Origin: Aquabacterium sp.
GTDB taxonomy: Bacteria > Pseudomonadota > Gammaproteobacteria > Burkholderiales > Burkholderiaceae_C
Length of the DNA stretch: 64,000 bases
Direction of reading: 5' to 3'
Assembly (NCBI RefSeq): GCF_016195855.1
Contig: NZ_JACPYU010000010.1
Location: forward strand, 186,001-250,000
The notes under the pieces were generated by a model. The model was not told the DNA's origin and ran no database searches. It saw only the letters and a program-made list of their open reading frames with translations. This document shows positions 14,578 to 17,206 of the stretch, one piece after another (the stretch's first letter is position 1; each line of letters begins with the position of its first letter). A program made the translations under genes and the position numbers.

Positions 14578-15038
14578 CACGTCCATCCGGTTGTTGCGTT
14601 GCTCCCTGACAAGCCATTTTTGTCTGGCCTCCACAGGCGCCGCGCCAACCGATCACGCTGTGCGTGTCGGTCTTGTCAACCTTGGGTGGGCGCGCTGGGG
14701 GAATTGAGTATGCACGTGCGGCAAAAAAATGCCAGTGTTTTGTGCTGCAAAAAAAGCAAGCACAAATACCGCAAGCCTGATACAGTCCGTGCATTGCTGC
14801 AATTTGCTTACCTACGCAGCCTCAATCGTCTGATCCACGATTCGACCATCACGTCGCCCCCACCGCTCGATCAGACTAGACGACCCGACAAACCGCGGTC
14901 GATCACTCCATCGGCGAGCTCACCCCCTTACGCATTGCATCGTTGACCCTGCGTTGACCTCTGGTCGCACGCACTGTCCGATTGCTCCCGCCTCGACATG
15001 CACGGTCGTTTTGCGACTTCGTGCCTTACACGTCCATA
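14578..15038. other. Intergenic stretch, no supported gene; two A-loop hairpins
   Basis: Base composition is visibly more A-rich than the surroundings. Two small hairpins with poly-A loops occur: GGCA/TGCC around six A (14720-14733), and TTGTGCT/AGCACAA around an A7-containing loop (14740-14765). Plus-strand frames here have no ribosome site or protein character. The stretch probably holds promoters for the gene ending at 14323 and for the 15039-15915 genes. Confidence 0.5.
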
Positions 15039-15266
15039 GTGAACATCACACCAGCCAACGCGCTATCGGTAGGCAAGTACCTCTTGTCTCCCCTCATCAA
15101 ACTCACTGAATCTGGTCAGTACGCCGCCTCGGTTTCCGTGCGCAGCGGACGCGGATCCGGCACCCACGACCGGATCTTCCGGTTCGTGCCCTTCTTTGCC
15201 ACCAGCGAAGAAGCCACGCTGTATGCACTGGCCCAGGGCCGTCGCTTCGTACGGCAAGCAATCTAA
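15039..15266 (+). CDS. Conserved-looking small protein (75 aa), unknown function
   Basis: A 75-residue protein from the GTG at 15039; the frame is open further up to an ATG at 14982, but the upstream residues look random. The body reads GKYLLSPLIKLTESGQYAAS, then a basic stretch RSGRGSGTHDRIFRFVPFFA, and ends YALAQGRRFVRQAI. This beta-strand/basic-loop/helix layout is what I would expect of a small nucleic-acid-associated protein, but I cannot name a family. Its stop lies 8 bases before the IF-1 start, so the two are probably co-transcribed. Confidence 0.65.
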   Translation: MNITPANALSVGKYLLSPLIKLTESGQYAASVSVRSGRGSGTHDRIFRFVPFFATSEEATLYALAQGRRFVRQAI

Positions 15267-15274
15267 GGAAATAA

Positions 15275-15541
15275 GTGGCCAAAGAAGATCTGATTGAAAT
15301 GCGCGGCCAGGTGGACGAAGTTCTGCCTGATGCACGCTTTCGCGTGACACTTGAAAACGGTCATGCGCTCATCGCCTACTCGGGCGGCAAGATGCGCAAG
15401 AACCGTATCCGAATTCTGGCTGGCGACAAGGTGTCCCTGGAGCTGTCTCCTTACGACCTGAGCAAGGGTCGTATCACCTTCCGCCATCTCGAAACCCGTA
15501 TGAATGGCGGGCCTCCTCCCGCACGACGCAAGTTCCGTTGA
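15275..15541 (+). CDS. infA: Translation initiation factor IF-1 (long variant)
   Basis: An 88-residue IF-1 starting at GTG with AAGGAA 6-11 bases upstream. It has the OB-fold pattern of IF-1: [20 protein letters not shown], then [20 protein letters not shown] and [20 protein letters not shown]. It ends with about 15 extra residues ([13 protein letters not shown] region) absent from the 72-residue E. coli protein. IF-1 binds the ribosomal A site during initiation. Betaproteobacteria often have a second IF-1 outside the ribosomal-protein operons, and this longer form is likely that copy. It is followed by the RRM protein, 53 bases downstream. Confidence 0.93.
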
Positions 15542-15594: not shown

Positions 15595-15915
15595 ATGGAA
15601 AACAAGCTCTACGTCGGCAACCTGGCCTACTCTGTCCGCGACGACAACCTGCAACAAGAAATGTCTGCCTTCGGCAGCGTCATGTCCGCCAAGGTCATGA
15701 TGGACCGTGACACCGGTCGCTCCAAGGGTTTCGGCTTTGTCGAAATGTCCTCGCCCGAAGAAGCGCAAGCCGCCATCCGTGGCCTGCACGGCAAGACCGT
15801 TGACGGTCGCGCCCTGGTCGTGAACCTGGCCCGTCCTAAGGAAGATCGTCCTTCGGGCGGCTTCGGCGGCGGCAATGGTGGCGGCGGCTACCGCGGTGGC
15901 CGCGGTTCTTACTAA
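15595..15915 (+). CDS. RRM-type RNA-binding protein
   Basis: A 106-residue single-RRM protein. RNP-2 is LYVGNL (residues 5-10) and RNP-1 is KGFGFVEM (about 44-51); a Gly-rich tail (GGFGGGNGGGGYRGGRG) follows residue 84. Start is the ATG at 15595. Bacterial RRM proteins of this type bind single-stranded RNA and are often cold-induced. A 7-bp hairpin (GGTTCTT 15904-15910 / AAGAACC 15915-15921) spans the stop codon but has no T tract, so transcription may read on into the histidine leader that begins 23 bases later. Confidence 0.95.
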   Translation: MENKLYVGNLAYSVRDDNLQQEMSAFGSVMSAKVMMDRDTGRSKGFGFVEMSSPEEAQAAIRGLHGKTVDGRALVVNLARPKEDRPSGGFGGGNGGGGYRGGRGSY

Positions 15916-15938
15916 AGAACCCGTGCCATACTGAGCCC

Positions 15939-16040
15939 ATGAGCATGCAGGCCTTGATCGCTTTGTCGCATCACCACCATCACCATGGTTCGCCATGGCG
16001 CCGTGGTCGTGCCTGCACGCTCGACTTGCAAAGACCTTGA
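15939..16040 (+). CDS. Histidine leader peptide (attenuator control peptide)
   Basis: A 33-codon frame beginning [10 protein letters not shown], followed by six consecutive His codons (CAT CAC CAC CAT CAC CAT, 15969-15986), then [17 protein letters not shown] and TGA at 16038-16040. The next gene is hisC, with an intrinsic terminator between them. Runs of His codons before a terminator and a his gene are the hallmark of ribosome-mediated attenuation, as in enteric hisL. The peptide itself need have no function; its translation senses charged tRNA-His. No good Shine-Dalgarno is visible (only GAG). An alternative start is the second Met at 15945. Confidence 0.88.
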
Positions 16041-16100
16041 GACCTCAAGCAGCAAGTAGCTCAGACAACACCGAAGGCGCCGCAAGGCGCCTTTTTCTTT
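15983..16100 (+). promoter_or_regulatory. Histidine transcription attenuator of hisC
   Basis: Four mutually exclusive RNA segments can be seen. Segment 1, CCATGG at 15983-15988 (inside the last His codons), pairs with segment 2, CCATGG at 15993-15998, around a TTCG tetraloop. Segment 2 continues as GGCGCC (15997-16002), which can instead pair with GGCGCC of segment 3 (16076-16081). Segment 3 otherwise forms the terminator with segment 4 (16086-16093). A ribosome stalled on the His codons would cover segment 1, free segment 2 to pair with 3, and prevent termination. A further small hairpin (CTTG/CAAG near 16036-16049) overlaps the leader stop. Confidence 0.85.
16074..16100 (+). terminator. Intrinsic terminator of the his attenuator
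   Basis: A perfect 8-bp stem, AAGGCGCC (16074-16081) with GGCGCCTT (16086-16093), closes a GCAA tetraloop (GNRA type). It is followed by TTTTTCTTT. It lies 33 bases before the hisC start codon and after the leader-peptide stop. Confidence 0.92.
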
Positions 16101-16132
16101 GGCTGGAACTTTTTTGGCAAGGACCCCCTTTC

Positions 16133-17206
16133 ATGAGCCGATTCTGGAGCCCGCTGGTCAAGCAGTTGACACCGTATGTCGCAGGGGAGCAGGCCCGCCT
16201 GCCTGATCTCGTCAAGCTCAACACCAACGAGAACCCCTACGGGCCGGCGCCCGAGGTGCTGGCGGCCATCGCGCACGCCAATGCCGATGACTTGCGCCTG
16301 TATCCCGATCCGGCTGCCAGCGCCTTGCGGCGTGTGATCGCGGCGCACCATGGCGTGCAGGCCGACCAGGTCTTCGTGGGCAATGGCTCTGACGAGGTGC
16401 TGGCTCATGCCTTTCACGCGCTGTTCCAGCACGGCCTGCCGGTGCTGATGCCGGATGTGAGCTACAGCTTCTACCCGGTCTACTGCCGCTTGTATGGCAT
16501 CCCGCATGAGCTGGTGCCCCTCAAGGCTGACTTCTGTCTTGATGTGCAGGACTACGCGCGGCCGGCTGGACAGGTGGGCGGCGTGGTGCTGGCCAATCCC
16601 AATGCGCCAACCGGGATTGCGCTGCCCCTGGCGGACATCGAGGCCTTGCTGCGCCTGCATCCGGACCGCGTGGTGCTGGTGGACGAAGCCTATGTGGACT
16701 TTGGCGGCGAGAGCGCGGCAAGCCTGATCGCGCGGCATCCCCATCTGCTGGTGGTGCAGACCTTGTCCAAGTCCCGTGGGCTGGCGGGCTTGCGTGTGGG
16801 TTATGCCCTGGGGTCGGTCGAGCTGATCGAGGGCCTGGCCCGTGTGAAGGACTCGTTCAACTCGTATCCGCTGGACCGCCTGGCGCAGGCCGGGGCGGTG
16901 GCGTCTTTCGGGGCCGATGCCTACTTTCGTCAGACCTGCGCGCGGGTCATGCAAAGCCGCGAGCGTTTGAGCGCCGGTCTGCGCGAGCTGGGTTTTCAGG
17001 TGCTGCCCAGTGCAGCCAACTTTGTGTTTGCCACGCACCCTGGGCAGGATGCAGGCGAGCTGGCCCAACGCTTGCGCGCGCAGGCGATCCTGGTGCGGCA
17101 CTTCAAGTTGCCGCGCATCGACCAGTTCCTGCGGATCTCGGTGGGGACCGATGCCGAGTGCGGGCGTTTGCTCGGCGCACTCAACACGATCACCCGATCC
17201 AGCTAG
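16133..17206 (+). CDS. hisC: Histidinol-phosphate aminotransferase
   Basis: A 357-residue class-I PLP aminotransferase. It begins [20 protein letters not shown] and has the HisC pattern: [15 protein letters not shown] near the N-terminus, the [11 protein letters not shown] substrate/PLP loop, [12 protein letters not shown] with the PLP-ring Asp, and the Schiff-base Lys in [18 protein letters not shown]; the C-terminal Arg segment is [12 protein letters not shown]. It converts imidazole-acetol phosphate and glutamate to histidinol phosphate in histidine synthesis. It is directly under the histidine attenuator, which supports a biosynthetic HisC rather than another aromatic transaminase. No other his genes are adjacent, and its 3' end overlaps the convergent next gene by 4 bases. 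Confidence 0.95.

Follow-up and report, generated by a model that had tools for sequence, protein, structure and literature searches.

A histidine-codon leader ahead of hisC

We analyzed a 64,000-nucleotide (nt) stretch of the genome of Aquabacterium sp. (the window, by which we mean this whole stretch). It contains a short open reading frame (ORF) with six consecutive histidine (His) codons, followed by an intrinsic terminator and then by hisC. A first-pass annotation, made from the letters alone, had described this arrangement as a histidine attenuator, and its account of the sequence was accurate. The 33-codon frame with six His codons at 15969-15986 is exact, base for base; a CCATGG-TTCG-CCATGG hairpin is rooted in those codons; GGCGCC recurs in three segments; a terminator with a GCAA loop and a T tract stands before hisC; and infA and an RRM gene lie upstream. 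Judging from the sequence and from folding models, we think it very likely that this is a real ribosome-mediated, histidine-responsive transcription attenuator in front of a second copy of hisC, and we predict a corresponding expression response. The features are:

15924..15932, plus strand: extended -10-like element TGC-CATACT (hexamer comparison); the predicted start is A15939, first base of the leader ATG
15939..16040, plus strand: leader ORF, 33 codons (read from the sequence and the ORF list; homologues in 6 genomes of the same genus)
15941..16022, plus strand: outer stem, 15941-15944/16019-16022 and 15946-15952/16011-16017, pairing the start region of the leader with the segment after hairpin 1 (minimum free energy fold)
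15969..15986, plus strand: six consecutive His codons, CAT CAC CAC CAT CAC CAT, the putative regulatory codons
15973..16007, plus strand: hairpin 1 (pause hairpin or anti-antiterminator), 15973-15977/16003-16007 (folding)
15983-15998, plus strand: core of hairpin 1, CCATGG-TTCG-CCATGG, 15983-15988/15993-15998, loop TTCG
15997..16002, plus strand: region 2, GGCGCC, either inside hairpin 1 or in the antiterminator with region 3
16038-16040, plus strand: stop codon of the leader ORF
16073..16096, plus strand: intrinsic terminator, stem 16073-16081/16086-16094 with 9 pairs, GCAA loop, T tract (-16.9 kcal/mol)
16076-16081, plus strand: region 3, GGCGCC
16086-16091, plus strand: region 4, GGCGCC
16119..16123, plus strand: AAGGA, probable Shine-Dalgarno sequence of hisC (read from the sequence)
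16133..17206, plus strand: hisC (TIGR01141, 297.1 bits, cut-off 276.55)
15275-15541: infA, upstream (family match)
15595-15915: RRM gene, upstream (family match); the leader ATG begins 24 nt past its stop codon

The locus thus has an ORF with His codons, an intrinsic terminator before hisC, a target gene from the histidine pathway, and an antiterminator that excludes the terminator (in folding models of unfinished transcripts only, and not strictly). The 194-nt leader transcript folds better than shuffled sequences (z = -2.41; 5 of 200 shuffles were as good). As a control, we looked for runs of at least five consecutive CAY codons in the same genome and found 11 distinct sites (16 pattern matches). 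All 11, the leader included, lie in or over longer open frames, so this control is weak, and the case that the leader is more than chance rests on its relatives.

Upstream of hisC, its frame stays open across the terminator and reaches an ATG within the leader (15995; 403-amino-acid (aa) ORF). We rejected an N-terminally extended HisC that starts at 15995, as the hisC frame is broken upstream at differing places in all five relatives shown.

The leader in other genomes

We searched for HisC in 42 genomes of the genus and obtained matches at E = 1e-100 or better in 13 of them. Six of the 13 (the window genome, G000, and G218, G004, G002, G025, and G021) have the leader and the terminator ahead of hisC. 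(The downstream gene was identified as hisC by TIGR01141 in the window, G025, and G021, and by similarity in G218, G004, and G002.) In the upstream regions that we viewed of the other seven hisC genes (G028, G011, G012, G458, G455, G006, and G036), there was no leader. A covariance model (R1) built from the six hisC leaders and run on the same 42 genomes gave seven strong matches (160-260 bits); the next match scored 35.5 bits. G027 is the sole match that is independent of model building. It has the leader and the terminator, and its contig ends before hisC. The first-pass annotation had suggested looking for conserved His runs before hisC in related genomes, and His codons and stems are indeed kept there in relatives from the same genus.

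Five genomes have a leader peptide of the HHHHHH type; in G021 and G025 it reads MSQYVTSLHRHHR[SP]PTGAG... instead. The six His codons are identical at the nucleotide level in G218, G004, G002, and G027, while G025 and G021 have CAC CGA CAC CAC in place of the run. A WRRG motif is kept in all five leaders of the window's subclade, and TGAG in G021 and G025. The terminators of the six hisC leaders range from -14.3 to -16.9 kcal/mol. A pair that neighbors the outer stem is A-U in G002, G-C in G004, and mismatched in the window, which is weak evidence.

In a tree of 47 HisC sequences (25 of the best 80 named loci and 22 other loci from the genomes), the six leader-bearing HisCs form one group with support of 94/96, just under the tool's mark (95 and 80). 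The group splits into two subclades, each supported at 100/98 or better. The nearest named HisCs in the tree are two labelled Burkholderiaceae/Burkholderiales and one labelled Acetobacter, in agreement with the first-pass annotation, which took the DNA to be from a betaproteobacterium. In the window's subclade, the leader lies behind the RRM gene and, where the contig reaches that far, infA. In the other subclade (G025 and G021), it lies near a gene with a T2SSB domain and an ATPase that resembles TIGR03015 (below the cut-off). We compared 8 pairs between the subclades: all 8 share 74-79% identity over the 19 bases that precede the leader ATG, but only 22-40% over the next 100 bases upstream. 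Because the leader and hisC are kept together across two neighborhoods with unrelated upstream DNA, they moved or stayed together, and the terminator is theirs. Region 2 is GGCGCC in both subclades but in a different codon phase (CCA TGG CGC CGT GGT versus ACC GGC GCC GGG), which points to selection on the RNA rather than on the peptide.

Similar leaders are also present in another family of the order. With the covariance model at E = 1e-9 across 399 genomes of the order, we found G802 (41.7 bits). Its leader peptide is MTTAFLNLHHHHGSPCCAVVLLAQRTGS, followed by a GGCGCC-loop-GGCGCC terminator and then by a gene that resembles histidyl-tRNA synthetase (HisRS). The downstream part of this gene matches hisS (TIGR00442, E = 7e-31, 107.6 bits; the cut-off of 286.75 is not reached) and PF13393. 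Of the genomes of this second family that we searched, 3 of 43 have a HisRS-like gene at E = 1e-25, and in all three (G802, G531 with MTTASLQQLHHLHGS..., and G823 with MTAYFSTPIRHHHGPFRRRG...) a His leader and a terminator precede it. (It was the downstream gene, not the leader model, that led us to the leaders of G531 and G823.) Beside the window's run of six, the other nine leaders have three to six His codons in a run or cluster.

Could the leader instead be a working His-rich micropeptide, either metal-binding or trans-acting like peTrpL, with a terminator that ends its own small mRNA? In Sinorhizobium meliloti, an attenuator RNA that starts at the ATG does encode a trans-acting leader peptide (PMC7298713). 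Also, with 33 aa the peptide is longer than usual for such a leader, and all five members of the subclade share WRRG. But the residues other than His are unlike between subclades and between families, while the RNA pairings are kept, and the next gene is hisC or HisRS-like wherever it is visible (9 of 10 leaders). We consider a micropeptide quite unlikely as the whole explanation. The leader peptide may have an additional role in trans, beside attenuation.

We also looked for the element more widely. For 80 named loci, the best among 590 confirmed HisC relatives, we scanned 400 nt upstream for at least three His in seven codons. Several frames with three His appear, going by the frame alone, to belong to other genes, and a frame with four His (L024) runs up to the start of hisC and has no GGCGCC terminator. 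At E = 0.01, the covariance model matched 169 of 399 family genomes, and G000 and G218 alone exceeded 46 bits. We inspected six of the weaker matches (G117, G097, G147, and G170 from the family; G012 and G026 from the genus), and we judged all six to be ordinary terminators after other genes. Among 399 genomes of the order, 8 matched a pattern for the promoter and start, and a reversed control pattern gave at least 6 matches. Besides the window genome and G802, the 8 are G053, G667, G048, G777, G591, and G818, none of which shows a His leader. G531 was in the sample scanned with this pattern but was missed, and the order-level search with R1, on a sample drawn likewise, did not report it either, despite its leader. 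R1 is therefore not a sensitive model, and the element may be more common than our searches show.

The HisRS-like gene itself (G802 L190, minus strand; G531 L206; G823 L207) changes frame at a conserved site. In all three genomes it begins MIRGT[QK]IY...FRS[CS]LH*, with a stop at CTT CAT TGA after 28 codons, and continues in the +1 frame. In the +1 frame, substitutions are concentrated at third codon positions (21/20/108, 27/23/75, and 29/27/108 in the three pairs); before the stop, the codon-position bias is weak (6/5/7, 6/5/13, and 12/5/14). GGAGC precedes the CTT CAT TGA site, which resembles the prfB frameshift. From the sequence, a +1 frameshift that is sensitive to histidine starvation, with a His codon in the A site, is possible; start codons within the +1 frame are also possible.

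A model of the switch

Our model of the switch is as follows. Transcription would start at the A of the leader ATG, and a ribosome would load on the leaderless 5' end. If charged tRNA-His is ample, the ribosome would reach the stop codon (16038-16040), hairpin 1 would re-form behind it and enclose region 2, region 3 would pair with region 4, and RNA polymerase would stop after ~158 nt. If charged tRNA-His is short, the ribosome would wait on an earlier His codon and cover the 5' arm of hairpin 1. Region 2 would then be free to pair with the emerging region 3 ahead of the synthesis of region 4, and transcription would continue into hisC. Leader RNA that is not translated would also terminate.

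We folded transcripts up to just after region 3, with a 30-nt ribosome footprint masked, and computed the probability that regions 2 and 3 pair, P(2:3). (In the codon scan, 12 nt were masked downstream of the A-site codon.) Among the seven hisC leaders, P(2:3) is 0.00-0.38 for the naked RNA. A ribosome whose A site holds the second His codon gives 0.92-1.00, and one that has moved beyond region 2 gives 0.00 in all seven. The first-pass annotation had suggested masking bases 15983-15992; with the 30-nt footprint instead, placing the second His codon in the A site lifts P(2:3) in the window leader from 0.01 to 0.99. For naked full-length RNA, regions 3 and 4 pair with a probability of 0.97-1.00 in the seven leaders. 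In the codon scan, the open state lasts until the third, fourth, or fifth His codon in leaders with six; in G025 and G021, which have three, it ends directly after the last. For the window with upstream RNA present, P(2:3) is 0.43 at the fourth His codon, 0.73 at the fifth, and 0.06 at the sixth; without upstream RNA, it is 1.00 at the fourth and fifth and 0.00 at the sixth.

The three HisRS-like leaders have P(2:3) of 0.00-0.11 when naked, 0.83-1.00 at His codons 1 and 2, and 0.03-0.11 with the ribosome at the stop. They behave like the hisC leaders at His codons 1 and 2 despite differing region 2 sequences. In these models, the proposal that stalling at His codons is the trigger holds for the second His codon (7 of 7 and 3 of 3 leaders) and fails for the sixth (0.00-0.06 in the window). 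That such stalling controls hisC is supported in silico by these models and by the recurrence of the leader before hisC and before the HisRS-like gene.

Several results weigh against this reading. First, the core pairs of regions 2, 3, and 4 are invariant among the aligned hisC leaders, so they give no evidence from covariation, and the covariation term of the consensus structure is unfavorable (+3.56; 4 of 51 pairs changed on both sides). Also, the three His codons of G025 and G021 are mixed with Arg. Second, the open state in the codon scan starts within the first few codons, that is, also for stalls before the His run. At the first His codon of the window with a 10-nt footprint, P(2:3) is ~0.1, so the outcome depends on the assumed footprint. 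With shorter transcripts, the switch is closed at the sixth His codon, and from the fourth in G004. Isolated late codons re-open it in G004, G002, G025, and G021. With the ribosome at the stop codon, P(2:3) is 0.0-0.1, but it is ~0.3 in G025. At the third His codon of the HisRS-like leaders, it is 0.83, 0.37, and 0.66. Third, naked region 3 is already paired with a probability of 0.43-0.83 before region 4 is made (six leaders), and when both GGCGCC are preserved and the rest is shuffled, 6-26 of 100 sequences still switch off and on in this way (hisC leaders only). Because some shuffles behave alike, the evidence for the switch lies in its repetition across subclades and families.

Fourth, once the full terminator has been made, equilibrium favors termination at every His codon in five of the seven hisC leaders. 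A ribosome whose A site is on the first His codon preserves the antiterminator in G025 and G021 alone (in G025 also at ~0.6 at the third His codon). In G002, and to some extent in G004, the antiterminator persists solely when the ribosome stalls ahead of the His run, and in the window, G218, and G027 it persists at no codon. Because the completed terminator wins at equilibrium, antitermination must be kinetic, with the antiterminator formed first during transcription.

The same equilibrium could be taken to mean that translation of the leader does set the outcome, but that the output is by Rho or by occlusion of the hisC ribosome-binding site. Translational attenuators have been described (PMC9413887). 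But a GC-rich hairpin followed by T's is present in all ten leaders, and AAGGA of hisC (16119-16123) lies outside the terminator. We think that either of these outputs is very unlikely.

We then considered where the leader transcript starts. For the ten leaders, we compared each hexamer lying 0-20 nt upstream of the ATG to TATAAT; a TG earned one extra point. The best -10 hexamer lies 6 nt before the leader ATG in all ten (in G823 it ties with another position). The hexamers at this gap are CATACT (five), CACACT (three), AATACT, and CATGAT, with TGn ahead in nine. Seven of them match TATAAT at 4 of 6 positions, and the three CACACT at only 3 of 6; within 60 nt, hexamers that match at 4 or more occur at 9 of 600 positions. 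TGCCAYACTG....CATGA is common to the two hisC subclades, which have unrelated DNA farther upstream. For the -35, G025, G021, and G802 match at 5 of 6 bases (at 18 bp), and G531 and G823 at 4 of 6. No Shine-Dalgarno sequence is apparent before the leader ATG; the best such match is 2-3 of 6 in the ten leaders. Because the -10 hexamer has a constant gap, with a start 7 nt after it falling on the A of the ATG, and there is no Shine-Dalgarno sequence, the leader message is probably leaderless, starting at the A of its own ATG. A caveat is that the ten leaders do not count as ten independent cases: five come from close relatives, and the model that picked up G802 itself contains the -10 stretch. 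Another caveat, and a further point against our reading, is the poor -35 in the window's subclade (1-3 of 6; 1 of 6 in the window); a strict two-hexamer promoter scan of the window found none for this reason.

This poor -35, and a leader ATG just 24 nt past the RRM stop codon, are what one would expect if the terminator ended the infA/RRM transcript, the His run were due to chance, and the hisC promoter lay further down, but this is highly improbable, as in G025 and G021 the leader, terminator, and hisC stand together although the DNA upstream differs, and His codons cluster in seven hisC leaders and before another His-related gene in another family.

Known attenuators and the second hisC

We compared the leader to known systems. 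The Rfam family RF00514 (His_leader) has no match in the window at its gathering score. In a search of 451 nt (15800-16250) at up to E = 10, RF00514 is not among the 7 matches, none of which is meaningful. By our models, the leader works like RF00514 but is outside that sequence family. The His leaders of gammaproteobacteria and of Firmicutes are described as sharing this working principle (PMC9413887; PMC2965389).

The attenuator of Escherichia coli and other gammaproteobacteria likewise has a very short His-rich peptide and a terminator/antiterminator, and controls histidine biosynthesis (PMC9413887). Unlike it, the leader in the window precedes a single second-copy hisC instead of a his operon and probably has a leaderless start; its ORF runs through hairpin 1 and region 2, and the palindrome GGCGCC makes up regions 2, 3, and 4. 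The enteric his leader ORF is also shorter. In bacilli, His leader peptides precede hisZ and hisS*, which are single His-related genes and include a paralogue of histidyl-tRNA synthetase (PMC2965389). These are in Firmicutes, and what they have in common with the leaders of the second family found here is the kind of target gene. In trpL of S. meliloti (rnTrpL/peTrpL), the 5' end of the attenuator RNA is the ATG of the leader ORF (PMC7298713), but this system is for tryptophan, is from Alphaproteobacteria, and controls trpE(G). In trp attenuators of Actinobacteria, complementary triples (gGCC-rGCy-GGCC) serve both the terminator and the antiterminator (PMC1262725), again for another amino acid and in another phylum. 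The GGCGCC shared by three segments, part of a compact design that the first-pass annotation had not seen described for this group, thus has an analogue in those actinobacterial trp attenuators.

We found no report of a betaproteobacterial His attenuator in the literature searched, mostly at the level of listings. Vitreschak and co-workers (2004, FEMS Microbiol Lett) reportedly covered proteobacterial attenuators in gamma- and alphaproteobacteria, so a prior mention of such leaders is possible. The available part of PMC2965389 mentions Betaproteobacteria for transposons only. The principle is one known from gut bacteria, and the device most likely switches the spare hisC on only under histidine shortage; for its form, with a probable leaderless start, we found no description from this group of bacteria.

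The hisC in the window had been called lone. This is correct at the locus but not genome-wide: the ordinary his gene cluster of the same genome holds another HisC (G000:C20:161435-162553; 373 aa; TIGR01141), which is 33% identical. The hisC in the window is therefore a second histidinol-phosphate aminotransferase copy. The other type of HisC is present in 12 of 14 genomes of the genus that were queried, including all seven leader genomes. (We viewed its neighborhood in the window genome alone.) In the window genome, murA and hisG overlap by four bases (L183:9952-11933, G000:C20), so there is no room for a leader peptide directly before hisG in the main his cluster. The genus has another group of second HisCs (L097, L123, L124, L101, and L103 from G012, G458, G455, G006, and G036), which are 60-63% identical to the HisC of the window and form one clade with support of 100/100. 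No His leader was found in the upstream stretches of these that we viewed.

As the controlled hisC lies outside the his cluster, the device would raise the aminotransferase step separately. A broader reading is possible, though we hold it only tentatively and with some doubt: that the order has a family of leaderless His attenuators, unlike RF00514 in sequence, which serve individual histidine genes away from the his operon in the manner of a portable cassette. These genes would be the second hisC in one genus and the HisRS-like gene in a genus of another family, with the main his cluster lacking such a leader (in the window genome only). If so, histidine shortage would be sensed at one aminotransferase step and at a HisRS-like protein, and the frame change at CTT CAT TGA could be a second sensor based on a His codon.

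Our analysis would bring His-leader attenuation into a proteobacterial group from which we found no report in the literature searched. It also suggests that the transcript of a His leader can begin right at the leader's AUG. It would also give a function to a second hisC, which would otherwise be guesswork, by wiring it to histidine. The seven hisC leaders and three HisRS-like leaders are a small natural set for studying how attenuators move between genes.

Elsewhere near the locus, a small ORF before infA (14982-15266) has weak matches to the CV_2116 domain and to DUF6566, both below the curated cut-offs.
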